Assembly (NCBI GenBank): GCA_018398765.1
Contig: JAHBMJ010001705.1
Location: 1-64,000 of the forward strand
Origin: Chromera velia
Lineage: Eukaryota > Sar > Chromeraceae
DNA length: 64,000 nt
Reading direction: 5' to 3'
The notes under the pieces were generated by a model. That model did not search any database. It worked only from the letters and a program-made list of their open reading frames with translations, and was not told the DNA's origin. Positions 5,432 to 58,446 of this stretch are shown here, piece after piece. The position numbers and the translations under genes are program-made. The stretch's first letter is position 1, and each line of letters opens with the position of its first letter.

Positions 5432-7229
5432 AGTATGCAAAGCGCAGACAGATTGTTGTTTGTTAGCGGCCTGGAAAACCAGGTGGGCCACGGGGTGTGG
5501 TCTGAGCCTCAGCGATGAGGTACACCCCCCTGCCGTTTGCGGGGGCGACCTCTATAAGACAAAACGGCGACAGTGCTCTAGGGTACCATTAATCACTTAT
5601 CACTTACTTATCACTTAAAATAAAGTTTAATAAACAGTGCTTAATTCTTATCACGGGTTCTTCACTATATATAGGACCTATGATAAATCCTAGTATAGGT
5701 CTTTAACTTTCATAAGTATGGAACACATTCGTACCTTAGTAAATGTCTATCCATATATCACTACTAAGATGTCACGGTAAACGTACAAATTCGGTACAAT
5801 TAATGATTAAAATAATTATTATCATGCATGTACCAATAGACCGGCTTGTACAAGGTGTCTAGCGTTCAGTATAAGACAAAGTATGTTTTCATTCAGTTCA
5901 GTGAAAGACCAACAATCACGCTAAGTTTCAATCAGAATGCGTATCTGGGGAGAAAGGTGGGCTAGTGACATCTCGGAAAAGTTCTACGTGCACACACCAT
6001 ATCTCACAAGCCTGTGTGGTGTGCGCCGTTCACCGACGCGGGACAGCCGCAACATGCAAAGGTTTTTCCGGACGCCAAAGCCCTGCTCTCACTCCCTCAC
6101 TGACGGACGAAGACCGTTCGTTTGCTTGCCAATCGTTCCCAAAACCCTCCCCTCTGTAAATATGCCGCTCCAGGCCGCCGCCTCACCGCATCATAGAGTG
6201 CATGCCACCCAGACCACATGAGGGGGCCGCCTTCTTCTGTCTGAACCGTACAGTCTCTTTCCTGTGGTCTATTGGCAACGCGTGCAGGAGGGAGGGAGGG
6301 AGTCCCGGACCTCAATATGCACCGGCCGTTTAGACAAATAAATTCGTGGCTTACCGGCGCCACGGCATGCTCACCCAGTCAGAGGAGCACTACAGTCAGG
6401 AAGGAAGGAGGGAAGGAAGGAAGGGAGGAAGGGAGGAAGGGAGGAAGGGAGGAAGGGAGGAAGGAAGGAAGGAAGTAAGGAGGGAGGGAAGGACGGAACT
6501 GGGCTGCCGACCAAGAACGGACCTATGGATTGGATCGACTCAAGGCAAAGTTGAAAGGATCCCCGCCTCAGACGATTCATCCATTTTATTCTTTTACCTT
6601 TACATGCCCCTATCGATACGATGGGCACCTTGACAAAGAAAGTTTGACACGACAACATGAACCAACAAGCAAAGAGAATCGAACCTGCGTTCTCCAATCC
6701 CTCCCTCCCCCCTCTCTCTTCTAATGAAGGGCCACGTCTCTGATTTCTTTCTTTCGCATTCAGGGGGTCTCCTGGAGGCTCATTTATGTTTTTGGGTTTT
6801 CTGCCGCCCCCCCCCCCTTCATATTTGTTTCTTCCTTTCTTGCCCGACTCTGACGCTCCCATGCGCCTTTCTCTTTCTCACTTCCGCTTGGACCTCTCTC
6901 ATCGTCTCCGCTTGGCCGAGGCACGGCACGACCTCATTTCTCGAGGGTGTGCGTGCGCGAACATACAGAGACAGACAGAAGGGAGGACCCAGCCCGACAT
7001 TGATCAACAGAGAGAAGAAGAAAGAGAAAGGGAAAACCGTGTATGTTCTTGAGAGGGCACACACAAATCCATGCAGGTCTGGCGCTCTTCATGCACCAGA
7101 AAGAAAAAGAGGACGTCTGGAAAAGCACCTTTCTTCCCTTACTGCTGAAACGAGAGAGACCGACAGAGGGAGAGTTGAGGCGAGAGAGCGCTTGAAGGAA
7201 ATTCTCTTCCGAGGCTTCCCCTCAAAAAA
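5432..7229. other. Region without a clear gene
   Basis: The first 300 bases after LINE 2 include AATAAA-like motifs near 5617 and may be its 3' end. From about 5930 the DNA looks like that between genes and in introns further on. The short ORFs here are broken by a (GGAA)n/(GGGA)n repeat at about 6397-6493. A few AG/GT pairs could be extra 3' exons of the large minus-strand gene, but none carries a recognisable motif. Confidence 0.5.
6397..6493. repeat. (GGAA)n/(GGGA)n microsatellite
   Basis: Purine-only tetranucleotide tract. It produces spurious Arg/Glu/Gly ORFs on one strand and Pro/Ser/Phe ORFs on the other. Confidence 0.95.
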
Positions 7230-10200
7230 CTACGCAGAGACCTCAACAGGGGTCGAGGGATCCACAGGATGGAGCGCCCCCCCCTCAGACTTTTGTTGTT
7301 GCGAGGACGCACGCACTGTATGCGTGTGGGGGGCAAGGAGGAGTGTATCATCGTTCTCTGTCATCAGGCGGGAACTGCCCTTTCCAGTGTGCTCCTCGAT
7401 TTCGCTGTCTCTTCCTCCTTCATGATTCTTCGCCCCTTCTTTCTCTGCCCCTGTCTCCTCCTCACCTCCCAACAAGGGGAGAAGAGGTACAAATTCCGGA
7501 TCGCTACTTCCAGATCCATCAGCAACTCTACCCTCCACCTCTGTGCTGCCCTCTTCGGTGTCAATCAAGAGATGCGAGGAGACGCCAGATCCCAGAATCA
7601 CCGAGAGGGGCTTGGTGGGTCGCGCCACCTTCTGGAACCAGCAGAGGCACCAGAGATCCCCACGGGGACAGTCTGCACCAACACACATGCCCACACGCGC
7701 ATGCACATTCCGGACCAAAACATTCATACATGTGTGCATGAGAGAGAGAGTATGTGTACGTGAGAGAGAAGAAAGAAAAGGCAGATTGATTGCAGAAATG
7801 GGGCGTCGACCTGCTTTCCAGTGGTCTGCGTGATCGTGCAGTGACGAAATTCATTGAGCAGATCAGCCGCATGCGAAATTTAAGGGAGGATGGAGAAGGA
7901 GTTAAGGAACAAAAGGTAAAAGGGAAACCAAGCGATCGGGCCAGCACGCAAGGAAGGAAGGCGACTCACGATGATCCTGTGCACAGATGCGGGTCCACCC
8001 TGCCGGCCCGTTAGAACCCCCAAACGGATTCCAGTTCACCCCGTTCCAGCTGCAGCAGGATCATGAGTCAGACGGGGGTCAGTCAGTCAGTCAGTCAGTC
8101 AGTCAGTCAGTCAGTCATGTACAGAGATGAAGATGGCCTGGTGTGAAAGACCATGAAAGGCTGAATGGATTGATTTGATTTGATGAAAAGAGGAATGAAA
8201 ACGCATATATATGCACGGACCAACATAGAGAGAGAGAATCGGGGGACAAGATAGAAAGGCGGTTGCCAGAGCCATCCGTTGAAAGTAACTCCCCCCCCCC
8301 CCTCTCTCTCGATCTATATGAGGATATAAAAGCGCTTTTCTGTTCTTCTCATCTCTCCGTCTCATACTGATTATGCCCTTCGCCTCCCAACCGTGCGAGC
8401 TAAGCCACTCATCCTCCCTCTCCTCTCTTTCGCACCCAGACCATGACTCGACATAGCTCTTTACAGTGTTGGTCGAAAAAAGGTGAGGAAAAAGGACAAG
8501 GCCTCTCTCTCTCTTCATAGACCGATCCTGATTGTTTTCTCGATCCTGCTTTTGCTTCTTCTTATCATCTCTTACCCGCCCTCACTCACTTGCAGGCGTA
8601 TTTTGTTCCCCAATCGCCCGGCCAGTGGTTGCCGTCGTGCCACTTCTGGAGACACCACACTGTACCCTCGGGAAGGGCCGCCTGCTTGTCTGCACTCCAG
8701 GCTCCGGTAGTCTCCAACCAGCCCAAACCGACCCCTCCAGGTGCCCCGAAGTCGTAGAAGCCCTTGAACCGAAGACCTGCTCGGACAGGATGAATGACAT
8801 TGCTCGACCAAAGTGAACACGCCGACACAAATGTATGCATGTACACAAATCGATCAGCACAACAACTTCCCTCCTTGAACCGACCACACGCGAACTCATG
8901 CACATTCTCTCAGACAAGAACACATTTTAAGTTTCGCTCTGCATGCCCACCCCTTTGTGGAGAACTTCTGTCTGTCTGTTCTGCCCACCCACCCAACCAC
9001 CCACCTGGAGGAACATTCTTTGGGTCTGCCACCCGATTCGACCCAACGTTGGGCGTCCCTCTGTCTGTCTTCATCCAGCCCCCGTTGTGGCGCAGAGCCA
9101 GGACAACACCCGGAGGCCCGACCCCAGAGAAGTCAAGGGGCGTTCCCGCCGGGTCCTCGTACCATACCCAGGAGTAGCCTTTCCTGTCATCTCTCCCTGC
9201 ACGAAGGAAGAAGCGAAGATATGAATGATCAGAGAATCCGAAGGAGCTTCTACATTTATGCCGCAACATCACTTCTCTGGGTGTTCTCCGAAATCATGCG
9301 ACGAAGGAGAGACGGAGATCTAATCATAGTATGAGACCATAAACAGCGACTGATCAAGGAACTCACCAACGTCAGGGGCCCAGGCTCTATGGATGCCTAA
9401 CGCCAGCCCGTCAGGAAGGTGGCTGAAGCTCTCCCTGTCCCTCTGTAAACGGAGGATCTGCAGCAGGCATAAAAAAGAGCAACAACAGAAACTTACTTTG
9501 CATGAGCGGAGGCCAAGTGCAAGGAACTCGAAAAGAAAAAAATGCGAAGCCGAGTGGGTCTAAGCAGAGCACTTGGCAGAATTCGAGTCTGCGCCAAGAG
9601 AGAGGACTGCACATACATATTCAGAACAACACCCGAAGGCTCTCTCTCCACCACACTAGCTTTCGTTTTGAAAGAAATTCCCCCCTCCCCTCAGTCCTTC
9701 TCCCGGGTCTCGAAGGAAGGAAGGAAGGAAAAGAGGAAGGAAACTCAGCACCGTCTTCCTGATCCTACCCCTTGTTTTGCTAGAAACAATAGATAAATGG
9801 ATGAAGAGGACCAGTTAAAAGCGGCGCAATACATTCATTCTCTCTCTAACTCCCGGACTCATGCACAGACCTGTCCCGGAATGGCCTGACGAGTCACGGG
9901 AACGCCACAGAGCACAGTGTTGGGCCCCCACGTGCTTGTCTGCTTCGCTGTGTCGTACACCGTACACACCGTGTTTGACATATGGTTCTTGTCTCCTCCC
10001 AAAGGCGTCCAACTGAAGGCCTTGCAGCGGCCAGCCATAGCGAGGCACTTATCTCTGCACTCCTCGGCGCTCGACACAAAATACCTGCACACACACACAC
10101 ACACGCACACCCATCCCAGTGCATGGCATTACGGAGAGGCCAGCCATACCCGGGGGGGGGAAGAAAAGACGATCGAGTAGATGGAAGGAGGGAGGGACTC

Positions 10201-13200
10201 ATCCAGAAGCGTACTTGTCCGTTGGATCTGCGCAAGTGTCTTTCTCTCTCTCTTTGTCGGCTTCGCTCTAGGTAACTCAGCACAGAACGAGCAGAGGGAT
10301 CAAGGAGACCATGTGGAGGCCTCGTGCAACGCCACGAAGGAGTGACAGCGAAAGACCGCAAACAAGGTGTCTTTTCGAGGCAGCTGTATCCATGCAAGCT
10401 CACCTACCTAGCGTCGCAAGGCTCCATGCCGCAACCTGGAATGTCGGCGTTGTGCGGTCCGATCTGCTTGCTGCCTGAGGGGCAGACTGCTGTCATAGTC
10501 GTGGTCGTGGTGGGAGTAGTGGTGGTAGTAGTAGTAGTTGTAGTTGTGGTGGTAGTAGTGGTGGTGGTGCTCGTGGTTGTAGTTGTGGTCGTGGTGGTGG
10601 TTGTCGTAGTCGTGGTGGTTGTGGTAGTGGTAGTAGTAGTGGTGGTGGTGGTTGTAGTAGTGGTGGTTGTCGTAGTCGTGGTGGTAGTTGTGGTTGTGGT
10701 GGTGGTAGTGGTCGGGAAGTGCGGAGTTGTTGTCGGGAGCGTGGTCGTCGTGGTGCCCCACGGAAGGTCCCCCATCATGCAAGTAGCTGTCTCCTTGGGC
10801 CGTGCCTGTGTCGACCTAATCTCGTCTCGTCCGTACAGTCTTCAGACAGATACACACACAGCCACACAGATGGCACAAAAAGAGAGAGGCCGAAAGGAAA
10901 AGCTTTGCTCAGCATGAATGAGCAGTAGAGGGATGTATGCAGGAAAGACTCAAAACCAGAGCTGTGCAGCATTGGCTCGTCAATGAGTAGAAAGTCTCCA
11001 GCAACAGACACAGAAAGACTGATGGATGGAAACACTGAAGAGAGAACAAAGAGAACAAGAAATAATGCAATCGGTCATCCCTTCCTCCTCTTCAATCTGG
11101 CCAGCCCCCCCCCAAATGCTCTAAGTGACTCACCGACAGAGGTTGCAATCGTGCGCATGGTTCCCTGGGACGATCTGCTCAGAGCCCCAGTAGCCGAATG
11201 AGAAGGCTTTGCAGCCCTGCATGCAGACACGTATACGTAAAGGGACGAACTCAGAATTCATTCAAACGGACAGATCTTATCTTTAGCCAGGACTGCCTTT
11301 CTTGCAGGTGCACCGATGCAAGCATGAAAATCAGTCAGTCGACCTCTTTTGCATTCTCTCTCATTCATGCGCTGGCCGACGCAGGAGCCGCCGGGGTTTT
11401 CAAAGAGCAAAGCATGCATTTCATCGAGCGACGCGAATCAATAGAGTGAAAGGTTGAGTCAAGCTCGCCACACCTCACACTACAGTGAGATTAACCCAGT
11501 CATCCCTCATTCGCTTGCAGCGAAGTGAAAAGCGTATTAGGAAACACAGATGATGTTCTGAAGGTACACACAAAAGCTCGAGATACCAGTCACGCCTGCG
11601 CGACATGCTGCTTGACAGTACATCCCATCATCCCCTTTCTTTTGTTCTACTTCTACTCATGTATCGCTTCTGGCACGAACGTCTTCCACATTGAGAGTGA
11701 GGCATAGTGCACAATGGGTGCCTTTTGTCACCAGCAAGCGACGGAAAAGGAAGCGCCCCTACTGCTTCAATCGTTCTCTCACTAACTGACCGACTGACCC
11801 AATTTTTTTTGCAGTCGTCTCTGCATTGTTCGGGGGAGTTCGCCTTCCAGCAGTTCCAGAAGAAGGCACGCCTGAAACCCTCTCCTTGAAAGCCCAGCAA
11901 GGGGTTCTTTGTGAAGGCGTTGTAGGTTCCCGAGGGACACACGGCCGGTTCGACAGGGGCGCCGGGAATGCGAGCACAGAAGACGTGCTTGTTGACGTTG
12001 AGGTCCTCCTGGTAGGGCACGGCAAGCCCGTCGCGGAAGAGCTCGCACACCCATTTCTCTGCACTCACTCACTCACTCACTCATCCACTTTGATGGATGC
12101 CTACACCGATCGATGGAGGAGACACTATCGATCGAAGAATCGAAAAGGGAGGGGAAAGGACAAAAGGTCGAAGGAATGTGTATGTTCATTCTGATCGACA
12201 GCGACAAATTAGTGTCTTGAGACCTCCTCAAACAGATCTTCCGAGAAAAAACGGAAAAAGACGTGACAGCAGCAGATAAGCGGAGAGAGGGACTGAGATT
12301 TCCTAGACAAACACAGCATCCCTTCGAAAAACCCACCAAACACTCTCGATCAGACAGAGGTGCTGGAGAAGCGCCGAATAGAGACAAGATAGGCATACAG
12401 GAGGTCAATGACCGTGAAATCAGGAGCAGGAAAAAATTCATTCATGAAAAGAACAGAGGTGGTTGGGATCTGAAGTGACCTTTTTTTCTGTCTGTTCTCT
12501 GTATTGGTTTCCGACTATATCAACAGACGAATGAAAGGAAGGACGAATGCACAGGAGCCGGCTGCCTGTCTGGACTAGCTGGGCGGACTGACGGACTCTC
12601 TTTGACCAGAAATCTCGACTGGTAGCCCATGCAAGTCCGTTCATACCTGCACGCACACACCCACATATGGAGAAAAATTTATTGCTATTTGTGCACCCGA
12701 CATGTCGGTATGAGATGGTTCAGAAGGAAGGCCCCCACTCAAACAAATGCACATCATCCATCGCCCTTCCTTCCGTGCTTACGCCAGTCCTGTGACAGGA
12801 CGAAGGAAGAGGCGGAAGAACGCAAAGACCGACCGACACTTTGGGCGGACGGATGGACAAAAAACAAGCGTCAATTCTTGTTTGTTTGTCATGGATGTGA
12901 ACGCAGTCAGCGCGCGAAGATAAAGGCGGTTTAACTCACTGGCAATATGCACCGCACGCCGGCAGGCCTTTCACGTAATCGCCCTCTATGGTTCTGTACT
13001 TCTGCGCCACTTTCCCCTGTCCCGCCCTATACCCGAACCCCCACACTCCGCAGTCAAACGAGCAGGCCATGACTGTGCACGTCCCAGTGTCCGTGCTGCT
13101 GCCGAGCGCCGAGCAGTCGTCGCCTCCGTACTGCGGCTTAGGATTCGTGCACGCGCGCGTCCTGGTCCGGGTGCCCTCATCACACGTGGCACTGCAATCA

Positions 13201-15264
13201 GACAGACAGACGAGAATTTGTGGGGATTAGCAGAATGAAAGAGGGCGAGAGAGACGTACAGTGGACACGAAGAATGGATGGAGTGTGAAGACAGTCAGTC
13301 TCCCTTCCGCTTCTCTTCTTTTTCTTACACAGACAAAGAGAGACCGCGTCAGTGCATGGATCGAGGGGTCTTCGTGCTTTGATGTCTTCCAGCCTCTTCT
13401 TTCTCAAATCAATTGCTGTTTTGCTTTTTTCACTCACAACAATCTGCTTGGCGCTCTCAATACTCCAAACAGAGACATGAAGCCCTACCCAACTGAATCT
13501 ACCCTTCAGACAAATCCCCCAGCCCCACATTGGACTTATCCAAAATCCCCCCCTTCACCCCCCTACACATGAAATGCTTGGTCTTTTTTTATTTCATGAA
13601 AAGGCGTGTGCCCGCAACGCACCAACCGACCAACCTGCAATGCGACCAGGCGCCCCAGGCACCGTACCCTCCGTTGATTGGACAGGGGCCCACATCTTGG
13701 CACTTGCGGTACTCTTTGTCTGCGTTGCGATCTCCCTGACATCCATACGCGAATTCGCCTGCCACAGGATTGTTGCAGATCCGCGTGCGCGCCTGCACGC
13801 CCCCGTTGGTCGAGCAGCTCCTCGAACAAGAGCCCCACTCCGACCAGGCCCCCCAGCCTCCGTCCGTTCCCTTGTGAGGCTTGCAGATGGGCTCCCACCC
13901 AAAGTTGTTGTAGGGACCATGCAGATACCCGACCTGGACTTTTCCATCTCCGCAGTCCCTCTTGTCTGCGTGAATGCATGCATGCAGCCAATTCATCGCA
14001 GAGGCATACCATGCAACAGAAAAGAGAGAAAGAGAACTCAAAAACGTCCACCCTCAAGGAAAGCCGGAGCAACGCAAAGCTGTCGGTCCAACCGTAGCGC
14101 AGATTGAAAAGGGCAGTGGCTCTCTCTGGGGCAGGAGTGACATGACGATGGATAGGGATGCATCACGAAACACAAAAACAACATTTCGTGGATGGAAAAT
14201 CGCCCCAGGAATGATGAAAAACAATGAGAGAAAGGGAAATAGAGAGAGAGAGAGAGAGGCCGGACTTACAGCATTGATTGGCCATGCAGCCCTCGATCTC
14301 CTTGGCGTCTCCTTTGCAAGCCTTCCCTCCGTCTCTGAACAGAGAAAGACAAAAAAGAAAACAAACAAAAACATACACACACAGACAGAAAAGAACGACT
14401 CAATTTAGTTACACAAAAAAGAGGGCCGGGCCGCAGGAACCAACAGTCGATCCTTGTGCACCTCACAAATGTTATGCTGGAGTCTCCTTCTCGTGCAAGA
14501 TGAAGTCCTTTTGTTCGGAATGTCAGCCAAGGGAAAGAAACGAGGGACAAATGGAGACAGGCATTCGTTCCACAAATGCATTTAGTCTCTTCCCTTTAGT
14601 CCTCACTGACCTACCTGGGCGTAGGATTGTTGCACTGTCGGGTCCTCTCCCGCACACTCCAGTAGCAGTTGTGCTTGCATCTCCCCCAGTTGGACCACTC
14701 CGACCAACCTCCGTCGACAGCTGCAGCGGAAGGAACCGAGAAATGAGAGAATCAAGAAATAAAACATGAAGAGAGGAGGGAAGAGCGACGGTACGAAACA
14801 CAAAAAGGGGGAATGGAAAGTGCAGGGAGCAATTGAAGGAAAGACTCAAGAAACGAAGGAAGGTCATGCTGCACATTGAACAAAGATGCTTTTGTGCGTT
14901 TGTGTGTGATTCGCCAAGAGGAACAGTTAGGGACGTCGACAACTGCAGCTGTGGGGGCACACAGAGAATCGCAGATGTACAGACAGAAACTCTCCGACCA
15001 TCATTGAGCCAGTATTTTGGCGCTGCGGTCTTGACAAAGTAGCACCACCGTGGCGAGCCTGCAGACACACGCAGACACATTGAGGGCTCAATGGAGGTTC
15101 TGCTGGAGCAAAAGAGTCGTATGTTTGATACTGAAGATTGATGTGGAAAAAAAGGCGTGCCTGAAGAGCCCCAACTGCCGGCCCGGCATTTGCTTTCGTC
15201 CGCCCACTGAATGAGAGAGAGAGAGAGAACCAGAGAGAGAAAGAGAGAGAGACAGACAGACACA

Positions 15265-15312
<48 letters not shown>

Positions 15313-15321
15313 AAGAAAGAA

Positions 15322-15357
<36 letters not shown>

Positions 15358-16468
15358 AAAAGAGAAAAAGAGCGAGAGAAAGAGAAAAAAAGAGAGAGAA
15401 AGATAGATAAAGAGAAACTCACACACAGACTTACCACTAGGTCCAATGCACTTTCTCTGCCACCCCGCCGGCACAGGCGATGAGGGCGCCGTGGGGCACC
15501 ACTTTTTGTTCCCCCAGTAGCAGCACAGATTGAAGTGCATGGAGAAGGTCTTCACAGGGCGGAGACAGAAGATTGACCCCGTCGGGAGGGCGTCTGCGCG
15601 GTCCGGCGAGTAATTCATCTGGTGCTTGCTCTTGCCGGCAGTCTCGTACCTGCAGATAGAGGGAGGGAGGGAAGGTGAGGCGAAAACAATCAGCAAAGTC
15701 TTTTTGGCCCTTGCCCAGATCGCTTTACTGGGAGGGGGGGGATGAAAATGGTTATTGAAAGGCACACCCAATCGCCATCTAAATGAGTCTAATAACCCAT
15801 ACTTCGACCAGGACTTTCTTGTGACTCATTCCGACAGACATGCACAGCCATCCAGTCCACACACACCCAATCCAGTCTCTCGTGTTCTCTCTCAGTCAGT
15901 ACCCAATCGGGGCATAAATTCCGCCGGCCGTCTCAAGTCGCAGATTCTTCCTTTTCTTGTTATTCTTTCTCGTCCGTCCATGTGTGCAAGCGAAGAAGGC
16001 AAGGACAGAAAGCAGCTAAAGCAAGAAAAGAAGGAAGGAAGGAAACAAGCAACGCCAAAAGAAAAGAAGCAGACAACTAACCGACCAAGCCCAGTTTCCC
16101 GTTGCGGCCTTTCCCTCCCAGTCGTCTGGTTCGATGATCTCAATCACTCCCGGAGGCAAAGGGAATGTCAGCAGGGGCTTCCACCCCTCTCCTATCGACG
16201 CCTCAGGACCCTTCTGCCCCCCTCCCAAGTTCCGGAGCCCCAACAAAATGTGCGGAGGTCCTACCTGAGAATTTATTCAAAGGAGAGAGAGGCGAGAGAG
16301 ACCCGCAATTGAGAGAGAGAAGATTCTTCCAACGAGTACCAGAAAAAAGAAACAAGGAAAGACAGACAGGCGGAAAGAAGGAAAGACAGACTGAAGCACG
16401 GACAGACAGAGGGAACGAAGAAAGAACGAAAGGAAAAAAAAAACAGAGCACGTAAGATACACAAAAAA

Positions 16469-16505
<37 letters not shown>

Positions 16506-19500
16506 CTGACGAAATGCCGTGACAGAGAAAAGAGGGCGCTCCCACCTGTGAGTAGTCTAGCAGTTTCCCGTCCCCCGTGGGAGCGAAGTACTTCCACTTC
16601 CACCGGCTCCCCGTTGATCCCGCGCTCAGTTTGTGATCGGCAGCACTCACACTGACGATCTTACCGTGCTGCAACGAGACAAGAAGGGGAAAGGAGAGGA
16701 CAGGAAGGGGACAACCAAATCGCGCCGGCATTTTCAATCATTTGTCCACATGGAACAAAATCGATTTACAAAGAATGAGCCGGGCAAGCTGCGGCAGAGA
16801 AGGTGAGTAAACAGTCAACGCCTCCACGCCTCCCCTTCATGTTCGAACATTTAATTGAGAACTCCCCTGGATTTGTTGTTTGCGTGCGCCAACAACTTTG
16901 CTTCGTCTCGCTGTGCCGCGTGTCTCCTTGTTTTCTCCCCTTTATTCATCATGCATACATAGATACATAAGTACCCGAATTTCCTCTGAGTGTTCGCAAC
17001 GCATCCATATTTGCAGAAAGAGAGAGCTAGAATGCGTAGATCGAGAAAAAAGAGACCCACCTGAGGCGGTGCGTAGACTCTCTTCAAAGGATCAGGCTGG
17101 CCGAGACGGTTCAGACACACGGGCGTTGAGGCACTCATCTCAAGAGAGCCAGAAGTGAGAAGAGCCTCCGTGTCATTCACGTACGTTTTCTCTCCTTCCT
17201 CTTGCTCCTCTTCTCCATCATGTGCCACCTGTGTCTCTGTATAGGACCGGAAAACCCAGTCGTCGTCATCCGGTACCTCCATCTCCTCCTCTGTCTCTCC
17301 CCAGGCTTCCCCTCCGTACGCGTGCCCCTCCTGTTCCTCTCCCTCAAGGTGGGTGCCCATCTGTCCGTCCTCGTTTCCGGTCGGCAACTGTCTTTTGAGA
17401 TCGTCCTCCTCTGCATGACTCAAAAGACCGCTCTCACTTTCCTGACCCCACATCTCGTCTTCCTCGTGCATGTCCTCCCCCACTCCTTTCGTCTGAAGGA
17501 ACGAGGAGGACTCTGCTGCCTCATCTTCCCCTTCCTCGCCCTCGACATACTCAGGCCACTCACTCTCATCACTCTGCTCCCCTTCCTCCTCCCCCCCCTC
17601 TTCCACGAGGCTCGTCGTGCCGTCGTCTTCCTCGAGGTCCAACACCATGCCGGGAATGTACTTGAACCCCACGTGAAGCAACCAGGTCGCCAGGTCTGCA
17701 CACAGAGGGAGAGAGGAACGTACGAAGAAGAGGAAAAGCAATCTCTAAGCGTTCATCCGGAAGGACTCGTCTCTTTCTCCCTCTTTTTGTGGAAAAGGGT
17801 ACATCCAGCTTTATCTTCCATTGTCATGCGACTCATCGGCACGCAAACACAGCGAAGGACCAAAAAAGCTTCAAAACATGCCAGAAAAGAAAACTTTCTT
17901 CATAAGTCTCTGCACATGCAGGTTGACTTGATCCAAGCGGATTCCTCTTCTGTCTGCACGCACAGGGAAAGACAGCGGGAGGGAAAGAGGCAGGGGGGAG
18001 AAAAGGGGGGGGAAACATGAAGGTGCATTACTTCATGTTTTCACAACCCGCTTACACCTCAATTCATGTCAATCCTTTCTCTTGCAAGGTCCAACCGCAC
18101 AGATGCAGTATGGAGACAAGAGGAGAAGTAGGGCACTCGTGAACAAAAAGAGCCCCTCCATACATCTTCAGCATTCAAAACGAAAGTTGTCTGAAGTATG
18201 AAACTCAGAGGAATTCATTGCCTCTCAGAGAGGTCCAGTGTGCGGCCTTTTCTTTCCGCCTGTGGGTTGATTCAACGTCCAACACAATGAACACGCAACA
18301 AAAATGCATGAGGAGGCACCGAGCTTTTCTTCCTTCTTCCAAATTCAAAAATGTAGGCGTCAGCTTTTCTTCCTTCTTCCAAATTCAAAAATGTAGGCGT
18401 GGGCTGACTTGCAGGTGTAGCGTTCCGGCCCGGTGGTCTTTGTGGGTTTCCAGACTTCTGCGTACCCAGGCCAATGGCAGTTCGTTCTCCTGCAATGGGA
18501 GGAGGGGCATATGAAGGAATGGGGGGTGTAGAGAACATGAATTAAGCTCGGAGAAACCATGAGGAAAAGAAAACGGGGCAGAAGGGCGCAAAAGGCGCAG
18601 AGGAATCTGTAGAGAGAGGAAGACATGAAATTCCAACGAAAGGGAATGAAACAGAGACACCACACTTGTAAAAGGGATCATGGGCCCTCTCTCTGTCCAT
18701 TCTGCTCTGTCAATCAGCAAACTCCTTCGTGCACATACAGGCAGACCCGCAGACAGATTAGAAGTCCTTCGGTTACTTGTCAAGACGAACAAATAAAGAC
18801 ACAGATATACGCTATCTGTCTCCCTGATCGACTTCTTCCTGGTTCTCTGACGATTACTTGTTCTTTGCCCGTGTAAAAGAAAGTCTCAGTTCGAGGAACA
18901 CCAACAAGAAAAAGCCAGGGAGGCCAGAAAAGGCTCACTGACCCGTAGGAGAACTGGCACATCTGGTAGCTGCACGCAGATGGAGCAATCGATCATTCCA
19001 TCGTTCAACAAGGAAGGAAGGAAGGAAGAAAAGAAAGCGAGAAAGCGTGGGCGAATGAATGAATGTACGGAAACACACAAAAAAAGTGGAGTGCAAGAGA
19101 GGGGAAAAAAAGAGGAGCCTCTGCACCTGAACGAACGAAGGGCAGGTTACCTCACTTAGTCCCTCCAAGAGGAGAGAGATCAATCTTTCTCTTTCCTTCC
19201 CCCAATTCCTTCCAGAATCAGTCGCTGACTGACTGACTGACTGGTCTCTGTACTTTTTCTTGTAATAGTCCTTCGGGAGTGCGGTGGCTCTGCAGAATGA
19301 CGAGAAAAGAGATTTGGGCCAAAAGAAAATAAACCGAAGGGGGGCAGGGCGTCTCAAAACGGGAGGGGCAAGTCTACTGATGAGTGAAAGAACAAATGGT
19401 GTTTCTTGTATTCACGCAAGTCTGGTGTCCGTGCAGTACGAAACGCAAAGAGAGAGGGGAAAGCATCGGAGAGACAATAGGGGAGACAGAGGAGGAACGA

Positions 19501-20672
19501 TTTAGGAAACTGAAATGTGAAAATGACCATCAAACGCAACAAAGAAGAATGCATTTTGGAGAAGAAAGAGACTATAGTAGTATCACGAAGGGAAGACCGA
19601 GCCAGCCAGCAAAGAGACCCCGTTTCCTTCCTTCCACCCATTTTCATCTGCCCCTAGCTGTCCTTTCAATCGTTTTTTCTGCACTCCAAAAGAATTAAAC
19701 ATCGGCCAATCTCTTTCTACACCCCCTCCAAACAAGAAGGGGTCTCCATCAGACACCCACCCATGCACCCACCCACCTGCAGATTTTCGTTGTTTCGTCG
19801 TAGTCAAAGATGCCCTCTGTGCCCGCTCGCATGCCCTCGAAGCGAGCCCCCTTGGCGCAATCCTGGATCTTTGCCAGCTTCACCCCCTTCACGTTGTGAA
19901 GACTGATCGATCGAAATGGACCAACAGACAGAGAGAGGGACCGAAACGGAAAGTTAGCAAGTAAGCGGCGTCAGGCTTCCTTCGAGGGGAAAGAGAAGGA
20001 AGAGTGACTGATAAAGACGGCAGGAAAAGTGGAAAAATGTACTTTTCTGTCCATTTGAGCACTCTCACACACGGACAGACACACATAGATAGAGGGGAGG
20101 GCGAGCGGGTGAGGCGGTCGGTTGGAGGAGGGGAAGAGTATCAGGTTCGGAAGAGACTTCAAAGAGACGTTCAGTTTTTCATCTGACTGACTGACTGACT
20201 GGCTGCCTGCCTGACTGACACTTGGCCTCTGATTTGCACAAAGTCCAGTGGGCAAGTGTCCTTCTTGAAGCACACGTACTGCGCCTGCAGAGCGTAGAAA
20301 GGCGAACAAAACAGAACAATTATCAGGCGAATGGCAAATCTCGCTTTGTTCAGTCAAAGGATCGGGGGACACAGGACTCCAACAAAAAGCATAATTTGAT
20401 TTGTTCAAAAATGCAGCTGAGTGAAGGAAGAACAGGAAGGAAGACGAAGACGATCGAGGAGATGGATGACTCGAGACACTCCCATTTCCTCCCACGGAGG
20501 ACGCTCTTTCTTCTCACATACGAAACAACAGTAACACTTCAACAAGACGGACATGCAGACAGACAGACACACAGACAGGCGGACGGACTGTATGTTGCTT
20601 TCTTTTCCCTTCTTCCCTTCACGCAAACCGCCGACAAAGAATCAAGAAAGAAAGAAAGAAAGAAAGAAAGAA

Positions 20673-20720
<48 letters not shown>

Positions 20721-22922
20721 AAGAAAGAAAGAAAGAAAGAAAGAACCAAAAACAAAAGACAAACAGGAAGGCAGGAAGGCAGGCACGCTCACCGAGTGTC
20801 TGTTCGGACTCCAAACGGTGGACTTGTCTGACCACCTTGCGGAGGAAGGCCATCTAGGTTGAGTCTTCGTGTGGCAGCTGCACCCTCGTACCACACAGAA
20901 CAGGTCGGTGGGGAAATCACAAAGCCATACGAGAAGGGAAATGAAGACACGCACAAAAAGAAAGGAAAAGGAGACTCTGCATGTCGGAATTGGGTTGGAA
21001 GAACTAAAGAGAGAAGAGACGGATTGGAGGACTGCCATTCTATTGTATTGCAAGTTCTTTGGAATGAGTGTCACCGACTGACTGCGTATTCCCACTGATT
21101 TGGAAGACGGGGTCCGGATCCCTTGTGGCCTGGGAGACGCACCTGCACATACACAGAGACACACACACAGAGAGAGGGGGGGGGGGGNGGGGGGGGGGGG
21201 AGAATCCACTCACACACTTTTTCGTTTGTCCATCTGCACTTCCTTCTTCCGCCACACTGGCTAGCAGCCTCACTGAGTGGCTGATTGACTGCTGAAACCT
21301 ACTGCCTGCCTGCCTGCCTGCCTGTCTGATCTGACAGAGAGAGAGAGAGAACCAACCCCGCCGCCGCCGTGTCCATGCCGATGGGCGGTCCTCCGGCCGT
21401 CTTCAGTCTGATCCATTCCCGCGAGTCGTAGGGCTCATGGAACTGGACTTTCCCCTCCATCTTCCCATGGTCTACAAGCATCACGTGTCTGCAGTCAGTC
21501 AGCCAGCGAGCCAGTCAGTCAGTCTCTGTGTGTGAGAGAGAGAGAGAGGTTGAAAACATGGATTAGGGACTCTTCACATTCAAAGGAGGAGAACCGAGGC
21601 TCGAACGAGTGACTGCAGCTAGTCCGACATGCAGAATAATCTGCGTTCTCGTTTCTCGTGCATAGCGCCTGCTCAAGCAGCTTCCATCCGAAGCAGTTAT
21701 TGACATGAGCAAGCCACTGCCTCAAGACAGTCCCTTCGCCCTCCTCAACCCTTTCAATTTTCATTTGTACAGAAAGGAAGCTCCTAGAGAAAATCAACCT
21801 GACAGACACACCTGAAAGCGTATCCGGTTGGACAGAAGTCGTTCCAATCCCTTCTCAAGTGCGCCTTTGCGCTCATGAACACAGACTTCGTATCGGCCTT
21901 CAGAGGGATCGGGTGATTCGCGCCGCTCTGCATCCATCCATCCATCCATCCATCCATCCATCCATTCATGTACTTTATTCATCCGTATGCCCAGGCTGTT
22001 CTTTCAGGTCCGAAGACTCAAGGGGTTGAAATGAAAGTTGTGGAATGAATTTTGGCGGATGACGCAACATCCTGTGAAGAGAATCGCATGATGGTTTGTC
22101 TTCATTTCTCCGGGGGGGTTTTGGTCCAACCACAACCGCGCACATGCCACCCACAGCGCACACAGACAGACAGACACATATGCATGTATGCGTGTGTCTA
22201 TATAAATACAGACACAGAGAGACATGCAGGGAGGAAGGGAGCACAACAGAGAGCGCACACCAGTCAAGCACCCAGCACAACGAAGGAAGGCGTCGAAGAA
22301 AAAGAAAAAAAACACAGAGGACCCGCCAGCCAGACAAAAATAAAAAAAGAGAGAGAGAGAGAGAGGAGAGAAAGAAAAAGAGAAAGACAGCAAGAAGGGA
22401 AAGAAGAAAAAAAGAAAACCAACCACCCACCTGAGGGCTCCAAGGTCCAAACACCCTACAGGACCCATCATCTCCTTTGTAGGACCACCCAGAGCAGAAG
22501 TAGTCGGCAACACACTTGTCAGAGCACTCCTGCAGGCGTCAGAGAATCAACACCGCCAAAAAAAAGGTAGAAGAGAAAGAGACCAGCAGGTTAGAGTAAC
22601 AGAAAGATGAACTTCAATGTGGCCCCACGTCCTTTCTTGCTCCTATCAAGATGATCTGGCTCGTAGCAAAACAAAGAACACGAGAGAGATGCTCTTTAAT
22701 CGTTTCAGAAGTATCGAGGGTTCCTTCCTTCCTTCTTGTGTCTTGACGGACAGACCTTGAAAGGAGTGGCGGCATCACTGTATTGGGTGTACGGCTGAAG
22801 AGGGGCTTTTCCATCGAATCTATCGAACTTGCTCCAGTCCACGCAGTTCTGGAGGGGATCGTTCTTCAGACAACTGTATCCGTCCCATGGAACAGAAGTG
22901 GCGACCTGACAGAATCACGCGT

Positions 22923-22958
<36 letters not shown>

Positions 22959-24415
22959 GTGAAGAGAAAAGTTATCAACTACCCGCTCTCCACTAATGCG
23001 TGAGGGAACCAAAAAACAACACACAGGAGGAGCTGCACAGCACAGCACAACAACTGCGAAGGAAGGACGCGCTTTCCCCTCCCTTTCCCTCGCCCCAGCA
23101 GACCTCAGGCGACTTGCTGAGGAAGCAGTTGTCTCCAGAGCCCTTCGACGGGTAGTACTCGAAGGAGGTACACTTACAGTCTCCTGCACAAGCCTGCTGG
23201 CACTGGCTGAGTGTCTTTCGAGAAGATGACAGGTTCCCTCTCTCCTTCGTCTTCTTCCAGACCTGCGTGCATGCATGCCAGAAGCAATACAAAAGGGCAG
23301 GAAGTGCAAGGCCAAAGAAGTAAGAGAAGGGGGGCAAAGAGGCAAAAGCAGACGAGGGAGGGTGTTCGCATGCCGCCGCTGTTTTTGCCTGCCGGTCTCT
23401 TTTTTTCCTTTTGCTTTCTTCGAAAGACTCAGTCAAAGAGTCCATGTCAAAGACGTAGGGAGAACGTTCTGCCAATACTGCGATGCCGCCCTTTATTTGC
23501 AGTACAAGAACGTGTGCAGCAGCCAAACGCTTCTTTGCAGTACAAGAACGTGTGCAGCAGCCAAATGCTGAGACACCCAAACATTACACCATGCCCATTA
23601 CAGCTTTGCAATGCCCCTAGGAAAACGCATCCTCTCAAACCACACGGATTCGGTAAACAGAAAACCGACGCACCGACCCACTCACTCGGGAGAATCCTGC
23701 GAGACACTGCTCGTCGTCCGTGTTGGGTGCAAACTGCATCTCCCATCTCTCTTCATCCTGACAGACAGACAGACAGACAGACAGAGGCATTCTTTTCTTG
23801 TTGCTGTCTCTCTAGACTATAGACAGAGAGGAAGCCGAATCGACAGGCTGCGAAACGGAAGACTGACAATGCACAAGCAGACAGGCAAAGGCGCAAGGCA
23901 GACAGTTGACGGGGCTCGGTAATGCTTTCATCCATTCACCTTTCTTCTCTTTTTCGTTTGGCTACTCGCTTTGGTGATGATATTTCCTGGCACACTCCAA
24001 CAGATCCGATTTCAAGCGCGAGAACGCGTGCCACTGTGCATTCCACCATGTCCGTCTCGGAATTCAAGGGCAAAAATGGGAGAGGGGGGAAAAATCCAGA
24101 CAGAGTGAAAGAACAACCCGCAAGGCAAAGCGGTCCCATTGAATGAAGAGACACGCAGGAGGAAGAGAAAAGGAGCATTCCGAGGAATAGAGAGGCAGCG
24201 AAGATATTGTAATTGTGGATCCAGCATTGGCGCTTTTCCCGAGGGGATGTATTGGAGATCAGACAGAACAAACGGACAAACGGACAGACATTGTGCGTCT
24301 GGGCGTCCCACCGCGTGGCCCCATCCTGTCCGTCGGCATTCACCCCGCTGGAGATCTTGAATTTCTGCATCATTCAGACAGACAGACTATATGTTTCTTC
24401 TTCTCCCTCCTTTTC

Positions 24416-24448
<33 letters not shown>

Positions 24449-24470
24449 AAGAGAGAGAGGCAGACAGACG

Positions 24471-24502
<32 letters not shown>

Positions 24503-24774
24503 CCAACACCATGCATATTCAGAGGAGGAGTTCGAAGGATACGAGCAGGGAAAGGAAAAAATAAAGCTCGATGGAGGGACCGACAATCCTATCGAGAGGG
24601 GTAAGGAGAGAAAGAAATGGAAACTCAAGTCTGTCTGTTGATGAATCCTCTAACAAATCAAGCAGGAGAGAAACTTCGGAGATGGTTCCTCGTCTTCCAC
24701 CCAGAGCGTCTACGAAGAGGCCAGACAGAGAGGCAGAGGGTGTGTTTTTTCTTTGCCCTCCTTCTTTTCGCGAA

Positions 24775-24812
<38 letters not shown>

Positions 24813-27338
24813 GCAATCAAGCGTCTATCAGGACAAAGAGAGAGATATGCTGCCGAACATGTATGCAGCCAGACATGCAGACAGACAGAAGGAGTAGACT
24901 TACCCCCGTCTTCACATTCCACAGAGTGACGTAGATGCCGTTCCATCCGGCAACTCCCCATCTGCACGCCCTCCATCAGTCAGTTCAGCAGTGGCTTTCT
25001 TTCTTTCCTTCTTTCGCTCTCCTCTTGCTTGTCTCCACACGCAGGGAGACATGGAGAGAGAGAGATAGAGAGAGAGAGAGATCAAAGGACCTGTCAAATG
25101 GCGACAAATGAGAAGAACCGGTATCCGTCCACCAAATGTCAGCACAAATGGCAGAAAAGAGACAAGACAAGACAAGACAAGACAAGCCAAGACAAGACAA
25201 GAGGAGACCCACCGAAGATCCAAGGGAACCGCCACGTTTCTCCAGTGATATTCCTTCAAGCAGCCAGACAGGCAGCCAGGCAGGCACACAGGCAGGCAGC
25301 AGGAGCTTCAAACAGGCCGTCGTCTTCCTTCCATGCAGGGTCCTTTACCGATGAAAAACCAGAATCCCCAAGCAACATCCACGCACGCACGCAGTCAGTA
25401 AGGATATTTCGCCCAAAAAATCAGAAGACCGTCACGAGAGAGAAAGAAGCAACCGAAGGACCAAGAAAGCCAGAAGGGAAGGAGGGAAGGAAGGCAACAA
25501 ACTCATCCAGTCTGCTCACCGTTCCACCACCACAGCACGAAGCTTGGTTGTTCAATGTCTTCTGATTGTTGAATGCGCGAAGCGACGCACCAGGGCCAAG
25601 GAGCAGGCCTGCAGGCGCGCGGGGGGATAATGCAGAAGGCACGGAAGGGGAAAATGCTCCCTCGACGGAAAAATGTGTTTCTTTCCTCTAGTGCCAACTC
25701 TGTCTCTGCAATAGTGAAACAAAACACACACAGATTTTGTGACCCAGAGGTGTCTATCCGGCAGATTGGGCGGGCAGGCAGGCAAGCAAACCATTTCCTG
25801 TTTCACCATCCTCCTGACTCAACGCCATGAAAGGCTCTCTCTCTGTGCTTGCACCCGCCCGCCCTCCTTTTCCTTCCACTGACCGGAGGCCTTGTGTTGG
25901 AGGGCCGTGAGTCCCCCCGGCGCGTCTACCGCACTCCACTGATGAGTCCAGGAGGCCAGGTCCAGTCCTGTCTTGGCTTTCGTCACGACTTTATTGTTCT
26001 CCACAGTCAGCACCCCTCCAGTCTTTTTGTTCACAAGAACGAAGTCCCACGTGTACCTCATCAAAGGGTGTCTGCCATGGGGGGCCACGCAGGAGTGGTA
26101 GAAGGAAGAGCCTGAGTGACCGTTGCACGCGCCTGTGCCAGTAGACACCCACCCGCCTCTCCTGCAGCACGACGCCTCAGCATCTCCGCAGAAACTGCAG
26201 GTGTTTGGATCCCGGCACCCAGCATTCCAGCACTCTTTGAAGCCAGCTGCAACAAAAGAGAAGAAACAGAGAGACGCACCGAGAAGCGGACAAACGGGTA
26301 AGCAAACACAGATGGAGGAAACTGCACACGAAGCCGATCCGGCAGCGGACTAACGACCGCCGTGGTCTTTTCTTTCTTGCCGATCATCTCCGTCGATTAC
26401 GCACACTTCTCCAGCACTCGCCTAAGTCTCGACCCACCCCCCTTCCTTTCCCCTTCTCGCCCCTCCTCGCCCCTCCCCCTCCCCACACACAGGCAGGCAC
26501 CATCACTCTGTTGTAACTCACGCTGCGACCAGTCGTCCCCCTCAATGATCACGTCCATGTCTGCTGGATGGTTGATCTTCACGGTGGAAGGAAGCTGTCT
26601 GTTCGTAAGTCTGGGCGAGCAGCCCGTATCACCGGACCCAAAGAAGTGCAGGCCGCTACTTCCCGAGTAGGAAGACGAGTGCATCTTCCTCTTCCAATCC
26701 ATGAAGGTCATTGAACCCGACTGAACTCCCAAGGAGGAGCTAATCTGAAAACTCAGCAGATCGCGACAGGAAATGTCGGGTGCATTAGCGATGGAGAGGT
26801 ACGAATTGAACGGACTTTTATACGGAGAAAGCCGGTCAGAAATACGACAGAAGCAGGACAACGTATGAGACGTTTGCGAAAAAACGAAAGAGCATTGTCT
26901 GTGTGCTATGTCACCAGCGGAAGCAAGGGAGAGATCGAGTCAAGCTGAGAGACTCAGTGAGTGGCGAAAGCGTACGGACACAGACTCACGTCGAAGGCCA
27001 GCGTCGCCCCCGGGCCGATCGCGCATATCCCCGAATTCTTGCACGTATCCAGCTTCCACCTGATCCCTCCGCTTCCCCCTCTCGCGATCACCCACCATGT
27101 CTTCCTGGAATTATTGTAGATGTGCCTGCAGAAGAGTGCGAGGATTGGATATGTGCAGGTTTTTCTTATTCCCCCCTTTCTCCCATCTTCTTTTTTTTTT
27201 CGTACTTCCACTTCTGAGCAGTGGCTTCTCGAAAGCTTACCGAGTGGCACAGGTCCTCGTCCAGAAGGCTGCATGGGTTGTTGTCAGCAGAGAGACGAAA
27301 AAGACGGCCAATGCAAGAAAAGAAGAAGCGGCCATCAT
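7230..27338 (-). CDS. Giant secreted multidomain adhesin-like protein (PAN/Apple, TSP1, Thr-rich, C-type-lectin-like)
   Basis: Forty-one minus-strand exons from 27338 down to a TAG at 7230 join in one phase and encode about 2,081 aa. Exon 1 gives a signal peptide (MMAASSFLALAVFFVSLL). In order follow a cysteine-rich module (about aa 155-205) with a beta-trefoil-like stretch after it, PAN/Apple modules near aa 385-438 and 488-521, an acidic block (aa 769-980), three TSP1 repeats (about 1173-1385), PAN modules near 1400-1460, 1500-1555 and 1680-1751, a threonine tract (about 1577-1647), and a C-type-lectin-like region (about 1752-1950) with an acidic tail. No transmembrane segment or GPI signal is seen at the end, so it is probably secreted. 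TSP1 and PAN modules are known in apicomplexan host-binding proteins; a role in adhesion is inference. Most introns end in TGCAG. Donors are GTGAGT, GTCAGT, GTGGGT, GTCTGT or GTCGGT. Confidence 0.8.
7672..10084 (-). other. Exons 37-42: PAN module and C-type-lectin-like region
   Basis: Exon 37 (9871-10084) is a PAN module (SSAEECRDKCLAMAGRCKAF ... NTVCTVYD). Exons 38-41 (9367-9457, 9005-9196, 8590-8776, 7970-8049) give a Trp/Gly-rich region (LALGIHRAWAP, YSWVWYEDPAG, TVWCLQKWHDGNHWPGDW, WNGVNWNPFGG) with the late Trp-Cys spacing of C-type-lectin-like folds. Exon 42 begins at 7672 (CPRGDLWCLCWFQK). The lectin reading is tentative, and no clear calcium-binding EPN or QPD triplet was seen. Confidence 0.6.
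8078..8117. repeat. (GTCA)n microsatellite
   Basis: About ten GTCA units in the intron just upstream (in gene sense) of exon 41. The unit equals the GTCA core of many splice donors of this gene. Confidence 0.9.
10408..10786 (-). other. Exon 36: near-pure threonine (mucin-like) tract
   Basis: In the frame that joins exons 35 and 37, this exon encodes a run of 47 threonines, one serine and 18 more threonines, flanked by shorter Thr runs broken by Pro. It then returns to ordinary sequence (VCPSGSKQIGPHNADIPGC). The codons are mixed ACC/ACT/ACA/ACG, so the tract is not one simple repeat. Such tracts are usually heavily O-glycosylated stalks. The same bases are open in another minus frame (His/Tyr/Asn/Asp-rich) and on the plus strand (poly-Val). 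Confidence 0.75.
11138..12646 (-). other. Exons 33-35: PAN/Apple modules before the Thr tract
   Basis: Exon 33 (12597-12646) and exon 34 (11799-12058) close one PAN module (CMGYQSRF ... WVCELFRDG) and open another (NCWKANSPEQCRDDCKKNW). Exon 35 (11138-11216) continues it with GCKAFSFGYWGSEQ ... HDCNL. Phases 2, 1, 0 and 1 follow each other without conflict. Exon 35 ends at a pair of overlapping donors, GTCGGT and, 4 nt further on, GTGAGT; only the first keeps the threonine frame of exon 36. Confidence 0.7.
12940..14720 (-). other. Exons 29-32: three thrombospondin type-1 repeats
   Basis: Repeat 1 spans exons 29-30 (14615-14720 and 14270-14334): DGGWSEWSNWGRC ... RTRQCNNP ... GCMANQC. Repeat 2 is in exon 31 (13635-13965): DGGWGAWSEWGSCSRSC ... 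RTRICNNP ... CQDVGPCP. Repeat 3 starts at the end of exon 31 (GAWGAWSHC) and finishes in exon 32 (12940-13191): SATCDEGTRTRTRACTNP ... CTVMAC. All keep the W-x-x-W motif known for C-mannosylation. Repeats 2 and 3 have the C-x-x-(S/T)-C site known for O-fucosylation. Exon 32 then runs into a PAN module (GAYCQYERTCMGYQ) completed by exons 33 and 34. Confidence 0.9.
15212..15414. repeat. Compound (GA)n/(GACA)n/(CA)n/(GAAA)n microsatellite
   Basis: Two hundred bases of purine-rich repeats inside the intron after exon 27. On the coding strand this is a long pyrimidine tract. Confidence 0.95.
16471..16504. repeat. (CA)n microsatellite
   Basis: About 17 CA units in the intron after exon 25 of the giant gene. 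Confidence 0.95.
17061..17695 (-). other. Exon 24: acidic low-complexity block
   Basis: A single 635-nt exon encodes about 211 residues, of which the central 150 or so are rich in Glu and Asp with Gly, Ser and scattered Met. It starts LATWLLHVGFKYIPGM and ends LKRVYAPPQ, which look like ordinary folded sequence, so the acidic stretch is an insert inside the ectodomain. The exon is preceded by a very small exon (17928-17953), the least certain junction of the gene. Confidence 0.7.
18322..18400. repeat. 39-bp tandem duplication next to an exon end
   Basis: A 39-base unit at 18322-18360 is repeated at 18362-18400 with no visible difference. The second copy ends nine bases from exon 22 (18409-18489), so it lies at the 5' end of the following intron. 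The identity suggests a recent event. Confidence 0.95.
20645..20745. repeat. (GAAA)n/(GA)n microsatellite
   Basis: About 100 bases of GAAA and GA units in the intron after exon 17, pyrimidine-rich on the coding strand. Confidence 0.95.
21174..21200. repeat. Poly-G run with an unresolved base
   Basis: More than 24 guanines interrupted by one N at 21188. It lies in an intron of the giant gene. The length is probably uncertain because such runs sequence poorly. Confidence 0.95.
21929..21965. repeat. (CATC)n microsatellite
   Basis: Tandem ATCC/CATC units just upstream (gene sense) of exon 13. Here the coding strand is the purine-rich one, against the usual trend. Confidence 0.9.
22431..23262 (-). 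other. Exons 10-12: two PAN/Apple-like modules
   Basis: Exon 10 (23104-23262) reads SQCQQACAGDCKCTSFEYY ... DNCFLSK. Exon 12 (22431-22529) reads ECSDKCVADYFCSGWSY ... SCRVFG. Both match the PAN/Apple spacing of paired cysteines, a central C-x-(S/A)-(F/W) and a closing C-x-(L/V)-(F/S). Exon 11 (22756-22905) lies between them. All three exons are in phase 0 and the introns of exons 10 and 11 use GTCTGC and GTCTGT donors. Confidence 0.7.
23496..23566. repeat. Imperfect tandem duplication, period about 38
   Basis: A unit starting TTTGCAGTACAAGAACG at 23496 recurs at 23534 with near identity, in the intron between exons 9 and 10. Each copy contains a CTGCAAA or TGCAG-like motif. Confidence 0.85.
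24416..24501. repeat. (GACA)n microsatellite
   Basis: Two GACA blocks with a short purine-rich spacer, just upstream in gene sense of exon 8 (24290-24364). Another GACA block lies at about 24775-24808. On the coding strand they read TGTC. Confidence 0.95.
25161..25200. repeat. (GACAA)n repeat
   Basis: Eight pentanucleotide units, one of them altered, in the intron after exon 6 of the giant gene. Confidence 0.95.
25884..26246 (-). other. Exon 4: cysteine-rich module and beta-trefoil-like start
   Basis: The exon opens with a dense cysteine pattern (ECWNAGCRDPNTCSFCG, then SCCRRGGW, GACNG and HSCV) that I do not recognise as a named family. It continues with a Trp-rich stretch (TWDFVLVNKKTGGVLTV ... 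WSAVDAPGGL) resembling a beta-trefoil lectin repeat, finished by exon 5 (25520-25608). The trefoil reading is a guess from motif shape. Confidence 0.5.
27241..27338 (-). other. Exon 1 of the giant secreted protein: signal peptide
   Basis: The start was chosen at 27338, the first of two adjacent ATGs. The peptide has a short polar N-end, a hydrophobic core (FLALAVFFVSLL) and a small-residue cleavage site (THA-A). The exon ends at a GTAAGC donor (27240-27235) after two bases of a codon, and exon 2 (26990-27125) completes that codon. Confidence 0.8.
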
Positions 27339-33627
<6,289 letters not shown>

Positions 33628-57555: not shown

Positions 57556-58446
57556 CTTTTCCAAATCTATGGGCTTTGCAGTCGAGATGCTTGGGCAAAA
57601 AATGCAATACGCTCTTACGATAAGGCTTCAAGTTCAGAGACCGAAAGGGCGATGAAAAACGATTTCCTTGAACACTCTGACGTGACAGCTGAACTGCGCC
57701 TTTTTGGATCGAATCTTTCCTCACAATTAAAAGCTGATGGATCACGCAGGAGATTGACAGTCACACAGCAGGCTTGACAACCTCAGCTTTTCTCAGTTAT
57801 CCACCGTCAGCCTCTCCTCGTATTCTCGCCAAATGCTGTGGAGTGACGTACATTCTTTTCGTCTTGGAGTGTGTTGGAGTCCTTCTCAAACTTACTTAAT
57901 TTCAATTTTTTCGTCCGTCTCCTTTAATTTCCTAATTTTCCTTGCACAACCACGCGCCGGCACGCGGATCCGCGCCAGGGAGGGGCGGGCCCGCGCGCGC
58001 GGGCTAGGTCTTACTATACTACACTCGCGTCTGGATCTGACTGCGTGGGCACCACCTGTGCAGAAATTTTTGAACGAGGGCAGAAATTTGCATTATGGGT
58101 CCACCCAAATAATGGATGGGCGACCTCAATCAAGGGTTCGGATGATGGCAAAACAAAATCGGATCACCCCTTTATTATTTTTTTTTTAGTTTTAATGTCT
58201 TCAAAAAAATGTTTTAATTCAAAAAAAAATCTATTTTTTTAATTAAGATTTTAAAACTGTTTTCCACTAATTTATTTAAAATTATATTTTGGATAACATA
58301 ATTAAAGACTGTCCCAATCTACTTTGCTTTTGATGATTAGACTCTTAGGCAACCCGCTGACACACTCTGATATACTCTGTCATACTCTGTCATTAAAGAG
58401 CCCGCCTTGCAACAAAAGAAGAAAGATTCTTTCACTGTGCATCAAT
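57556..58446. other. Intergenic region with a GC-rich patch
   Basis: A GC-rich patch at about 57950-58007 (GCGCCGGCACGCGGATCCGCG, GGCCCGCGCGCGCGGGC in part) stands out in AT-rich DNA. Its position upstream of the ankyrin gene suggests promoter DNA. No coding signal was seen. Confidence 0.45.

Follow-up and report, generated by a model that had tools for sequence, protein, structure and literature searches.

Within the window, the 64,000-nucleotide stretch of Chromera velia DNA analysed here, a long chain of exons on the minus strand joins TSP1 repeats, PAN modules, a threonine tract and an acidic block, and on balance we favour the reading that it is a nuclear chromerid gene encoding a large, soluble, secreted and multivalent TSP1+PAN binding protein. 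The product looks like a PAN+TSP1 secreted protein of an already known sort, plus an unclassified duplicated module. Below, we describe the chain and its modules and weigh other readings of them.

A coding chain on the minus strand and its modules

For the analysis we wrote a small exon-chaining program that combines donor weights, an acceptor score, codon statistics and an intron penalty. On the minus strand, the resulting chain starts at ATG 27338; most runs end it at stop 7230, the others at 7139. The number of exons changed with the settings, being 35, 41 or 48 depending on the intron penalty, 44 or 41 when acceptors were softened and GC donors admitted, and 40, 39 and 35 in three further runs; this variation is a point against our best explanation. 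An 83-exon model, obtained when the program was retrained on its own output, was dropped as over-fitted. For a clean control, codon statistics were taken from five other open stretches and the donor consensus was the textbook one, so that no weights came from the candidate gene. Under these conditions the real chain scored 203.7; the plus strand reached 10.5 at the best of 25 start codons, and 20 Markov shuffles, each taken at its best of 6, reached 0.4 to 4.3. An earlier control, in which the donor weights had partly been read from the candidate gene and one training stretch was one base out of frame, gave 243.9 for the real chain, 15.7 for the plus strand and 0.5-7.4 in 12 shuffles; once the training frame was corrected, the score of the real chain in this series was 236.8. 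The minus-strand coding chain is real.

One gene model drawn through this chain yields a spliced product of 2,111 residues with 89 cysteines. Its introns fall in all three phases (18, 13 and 9), and the statement of the initial annotation that the exons join 'in one phase' can therefore mean only that they share one reading frame. The same annotation had proposed 41 exons running from a signal peptide to a stop. Chain and stop stand, the exon number is not fixed (35-44 by settings), and the signal is read from hydropathy only. A signal-like N terminus, as expected of secreted TSR+PAN proteins, was found by hydropathy alone (2.1 over 19 residues), and no hydrophobic segment follows the N terminus in the product of this gene model. 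Coordinates of all features are given in Table 1.

Table 1. Features of the candidate gene, listed from start codon to stop codon
Feature	Position in window	Strand	Details
Whole candidate gene, ATG 27338 to stop 7230	7230..27338	minus	about 35-44 exons by settings, about 2,100 codons; exon-chain score
Exon 1, start codon and signal-like sequence	27241..27338	minus	highest hydropathy in the product (2.1 over 19 residues); GT donor
Exons 2-3, N-terminal module, no match in Pfam or NCBIfam	26521..27125	minus	exon 3 end 26521 by eye; program prefers 26438
Exons 4-9, Cys-rich head and stretch without domain match	23686..26246	minus	perhaps what the initial annotation called lectin-like
First PAN (above cut-off) and second PAN (below), exons 10-12	22431..23262	minus	PAN_1; second spans the exon 11-12 join
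Cys-rich stretch, exons about 13-22	18409..21972	minus	likeness to PAN seen only by eye; uncertain at several junctions
Weakest join of the gene model	17695..18409	minus	bridged only by a doubtful 26-base exon, 17953-17928
Exon with acidic block	17061..17695	minus	composition
Module B, first copy of duplicated module	14999..16668	minus	exons 16668-16546, 16264-16086, 15649-15435; by eye also 15206-15161, 15058-14999
Three TSP1 repeats	12940..14720	minus	exons 14720-14615, 14334-14270, 13965-13635, 13191-12940
Short Cys-containing exon between TSP1 and PAN parts	12607..12646	minus	by eye; junctions uncertain, program chose other bridges
Third PAN	10755..12058	minus	exons 12058-11799, 11216-11134 and head of the Thr exon (exons 33-35); profile crosses both joins
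Poly-threonine tract	10497..10754	minus	78 Thr of 86 codons
Fourth PAN, begins in the Thr exon (exons 35-36)	9871..10496	minus	PAN_1 24.0 bits, 3.6e-5
Module C, second copy of duplicated module	7610..9196	minus	exons 9196-9005, 8776-8590, 8049-7970, head of 7672-7230
C-terminal tail, end not hydrophobic	7230..7609	minus	hydropathy

The profile search that the initial annotation had proposed was carried out with Pfam on spliced pieces and found both TSP1 and PAN above their cut-offs. Three TSP1 repeats with WxxW motifs, as had been described, each exceed the cut-off of 21.6 bits when taken singly (TSP_1; 34.3, 27.1 and 40.5 bits), and the TSP1 piece as a whole matches TSP_1 at 5.9e-23, with the profile crossing exon joins in repeats 1 and 3. 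One of the 78 TSP1 matches in the genome scan is the third repeat, recognised from exon 13202-13062 alone (30.6 bits, profile 7-49). WxxW, the C-mannosylation signal in TSP1, is present in all three repeats, and the third carries the one C-x2-T-C-x2-G motif, which is the O-fucosylation signal. Both C-mannosylation and O-fucosylation are named as modifications of TSP1 (PMC10034466).

For PAN, the initial annotation had counted at least five modules. We found four stretches, three of them above the PAN_1 cut-off of 21.4 bits. Taken singly, the first PAN (exon 10) reached 28.4 bits (1.5e-6) and the second (exons 11-12) 16.9 bits (0.0058), under the cut-off; together they gave 40.8 bits (2e-10). 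The third, at 21.9 bits (1.6e-4), is barely above the cut-off and must be regarded as borderline, since pieces of other lengths gave 19.9 bits (below) or 24.7 bits (above). A fifth module could not be upheld, the joined Cys-rich exons from 20284 to 18409 having no Pfam match. The joins within TSP1 repeats 1 and 3, the second PAN and the third PAN are supported because profiles run across them, and the placing of PAN and TSP1 exons on a shared transcript rests on the computed model.

Both spacers named in the initial annotation are present. In the threonine tract, the 78 threonine codons among 86 are ACC 33, ACT 22, ACA 12 and ACG 11 times, and the longest run of a single codon is 4. The DNA of the tract is a degenerate 3-base repeat whose other frames are open too, so its open frame proves nothing; the free third bases are the better argument that the tract is kept at the amino-acid level. 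The acidic block contains 57 D+E compared with 5 K+R in 152 residues.

The duplicated module and stretches without a recognised domain

About half of the predicted product has no domain recognised by Pfam, which counts against our best explanation, as do the PAN that falls short of its cut-off and the one that scarcely exceeds it. One module of about 190 residues occurs twice, and its copies, B and C, flank the TSP1/PAN/Thr core on either side. When the product was compared with itself, leaving aside two exons found by eye, blastp aligned B with C at E 2.2e-7; with these two exons included, the local alignment score was 150, which was reached in 0 of 1000 shuffles. The short exons that extend module B (window 15206-14999) may be separated by a GC-AG intron, exon 15206-15161 having a GC donor. 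Module B has no Pfam or NCBIfam match and module C no Pfam match, and the best hits of B and C in a sequence comparison with the PDB (E 0.28 and 0.039) are not credible. Module C also had no relative in viral or prokaryote contigs in a search that finds close relatives only. We consider the duplicated module a candidate for a new domain family. The N-terminal and middle modules were tried as extra copies of B/C and rejected, their scores being reached by 202, 209, 159 and 429 of 1000 shuffles.

The lectin-like modules of the initial annotation, perhaps exons 4-9, found no counterpart in the databases searched. These exons have no Pfam match, and neither the best PDB-sequence hit (E 0.19) nor the best NCBIfam hit (E 0.047, 13 bits compared with a cut-off of 179) is credible. 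By eye, a beta-trefoil or lectin fold with a threefold repeat had suggested itself; this reading was rejected, as the supposed repeats align no better than shuffles: for the pairs r1-r2, r1-r3 and r2-r3, respectively, 650, 1225 and 1201 of 2000 shuffles scored at least as high. In comparisons of the repeats with the N-terminal module, the scores were reached by 14 (r2), 86 (r3) and 524 (r1) of 2000 shuffles, six comparisons having been made in all. A search of the genome with the N-terminal 780 residues, which has low power for short exons, placed all 17 of 17 matches in the gene itself and found no relative at E 0.001.

Proposed function and alternative readings

Everything in the following account beyond the domain make-up is what we infer the product might do. 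The exons would form one transcript, and the protein would enter the secretory pathway. The tryptophans of the TSP1 repeats would be C-mannosylated and the third repeat O-fucosylated, and the threonine tract, presumably O-glycosylated, may hold the third and fourth PAN apart as a stiff spacer. The PAN and TSP1 modules may bind glycans or matrix proteins, and by such binding the molecule could attach the cell to a surface, to matrix or to another organism, or could cross-link matrix.

The same modules could instead belong to a protein that builds up the wall, cyst or mucilage and is not an adhesin, with PAN and TSP1 cross-linking glycans in the alga's own coat. The product has no membrane segment, chromerids are free-living algae and they have mucin-like Thr/Ser proteins (PMC4501334, section 55), all of which would suit such a role; Pfam matched no wall-protein family, however, and we judge a coat function rather unlikely. 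Far less probable, to the point that we give it hardly any weight, is a chance chaining of exons over an intergenic stretch rich in simple repeats. The region is indeed rich in short tandem repeats, and the threonine tract is itself a 3-base repeat with other frames open, but the control scores contradict this explanation (203.7 for the real chain compared with at most 10.5), and TSP1 and PAN above their cut-offs as well as the duplicated module speak against it.

A more substantial possibility, although we do not prefer it, is that the chain comprises two adjacent genes on the same strand, namely an upstream gene, from 27338 to about 18360, for a secreted protein with PAN, and a downstream one (about 17.7-7.2 kb) containing the acidic block, module B, TSP1, PAN, the Thr tract and module C. 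A single gene across the 18.4-17.7 kb join is not supported by score. With donor weights partly taken from the candidate gene, and before any cost for a start or stop was charged, splitting the chain at 18360/17648 gave 245.6 and one gene gave 243.9; a split near this join gained 1.0 in the frame-corrected scoring run. Downstream starts with a hydrophobic leader are available at 18962 (-0.8 relative to one gene), 18309 (-7.9) and 16731 (-6.4), and an exact direct repeat of 39 bases with offset 40 (window 18322-18400) sits at the join. Yet 17648, which scores best among the downstream starts close to the join, lacks the hydrophobic leader that extracellular modules would need, and 205 of the 305 candidate start codons in the split scan came within 12 units of one gene. 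These near-equal splits include 13570, which cuts the third TSP1, and 11222 and 11158, which cut the third PAN, and the split test is therefore without power. The best split of the 305 (+4.7) lies at about 12.7 kb between the TSP1 and PAN parts, and its start at 12644 has no hydrophobic leader by eye. Should there be two genes, the union of TSP1 and PAN survives and the single giant protein does not.

Known adhesins, ancestry and genome context

The initial annotation knew of no named family with such an architecture, which is wrong for the core of the protein. In the passages cited here, PAN domains are assigned to CpTSP1 and CpTSP3-6 of Cryptosporidium, with a lectin role in adhesion suggested (PMC10034466), and one PAN_1;TSP_1 protein is listed for Toxoplasma (Table 1 of PMC2575384); the core PAN+TSP1 combination is thus known in apicomplexans. 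CpTSP4 is described as heparin-binding and micronemal, with a signal peptide, PAN/Apple and two TSP1 repeats and with no transmembrane domain (PMC10865969). As far as these descriptions go, the candidate would resemble CpTSP1 and CpTSP3-6 in its modelled union of PAN/Apple and TSP1 in one protein, CpTSP4 being the member with a signal peptide and without a transmembrane domain. CpTSP4, in contrast, has 488 residues, one PAN and two TSP1, whereas the candidate, if it is one gene, has about 2,100 residues, three to four PAN and three TSP1, and adds the Thr tract, the acidic block and the duplicated module; the likeness meant here is one of architecture.

With Toxoplasma MIC4, whose PAN is reported as crucial for host-cell binding and as binding galactose (PMC2575384, PMC10034466), and with coccidian PAN proteins, the candidate has PAN modules in a secreted or, for the candidate, predicted secreted protein in common; MIC4 is described in these sources by its PAN, whereas the candidate adds TSP1 and other modules. 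TSP1 repeats with WxxW are shared with the TRAP/MIC2 family. In the scanned pieces, Pfam returned no match to the vWA domain of that family at E up to 10, and the family's transmembrane segment with a short charged tail is absent from the product of the gene model analysed, in which no hydrophobic segment comes after the N terminus. Since TRAP proteins are stated to have TSP1 and/or vWA (PMC9250747), the missing vWA does not by itself exclude the candidate from this family. For the same kind of organism, Woo et al. 2015 reported chromerid TSP1 proteins and Thr/Ser mucin-like proteins; PAN is not mentioned in that section of the paper (PMC4501334, section 55). In the literature passages covered, we found no description of the candidate gene, of a chromerid PAN+TSP1 protein or of the full set of modules.

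Profile searches of the genome gave 58 light-harvesting matches, 14 CPW_WPC matches compared with none in 14 control genomes, and 11 matches to IMCp, a family that also matches in one bacterial control. CPW-WPC proteins have been named in chromerids (PMC4501334, section 55). The proposal that TSP1 and PAN occur together in a photosynthetic chromerid-like genome is supported by the Pfam matches, the chain score and the light-harvesting and CPW_WPC matches, the two modules standing side by side in one coding chain. We put forward, as a speculation that we think unlikely to be right, that the PAN+TSP1 secreted adhesin architecture of Cryptosporidium was already present in the photosynthetic, free-living ancestor of chromerids and apicomplexans, and that the candidate is a surviving elaborate form of it. 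If the single transcript and the ancestral architecture both hold, the PAN+TSP1 adhesin of the parasites would have been assembled before parasitism, in an alga that is amenable to laboratory culture, and the question of where the adhesive toolkit arose would turn into a testable one, namely to what such proteins bind when the cell lives freely. With two genes or independent shuffling, the candidate would be one more chromerid extracellular protein.

At E 0.01 the genome contains 46 PAN_1 matches, among which the PAN exons of the window are absent; the genome-wide PAN and TSP1 lists are lower bounds, since the scan missed these exons. By these lists, contigs with both PAN_1 and TSP_1 other than that of the window are C305 and C1288, on the latter of which the two lie about 12 kb apart. 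In the C305 neighbourhood (L042, G000:C305:38500-48400, 5262-7965), about 1.7 kb separates PAN_1 (1.2e-5), which sits in an open frame of 664 residues, from TSP_1 (9e-11) on the same strand. PAN_1 and TSP_1 on one strand are common to this neighbourhood and the window gene; at C305 this is adjacency only. The stretch between PAN and TSP1 at C305 resembles exons 4-9 by eye, a likeness that was rejected, its score being reached by 53 of 500 shuffles, and a PDB match at E 0.00023 for a piece of L042 was disbelieved, as it is made up of seven short segments of a repeat protein. When the product was compared by tblastn with 28 of 45 loci, the 17 on the contig of the window being set aside, only the TSP1 part matched among the matches listed.

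Several further loci were noted. On G000:C215, 25 of the genome's 78 TSP1 matches lie together on the plus strand at about 35.7-51.1 kb, and at L002 (G000:C62) and L007 (G000:C135) large open frames contain a Cys-containing repeat without Pfam match that by eye seems to alternate with TSP1. In the window itself, the candidate gene has a divergent neighbour on the plus strand (28332-29417; HATPase_c_3, 2.4e-16), which we take to be MutL/MLH1-like and whose start is about 1 kb from that of the candidate gene. Farther along the window are an ankyrin-repeat frame on the minus strand (56035-57564; Ank_2, 4.7e-21) and, on the plus strand at 62554-63537, an RsmF-B ferredoxin-like domain (2.2e-10), where an RNA methyltransferase gene may begin.
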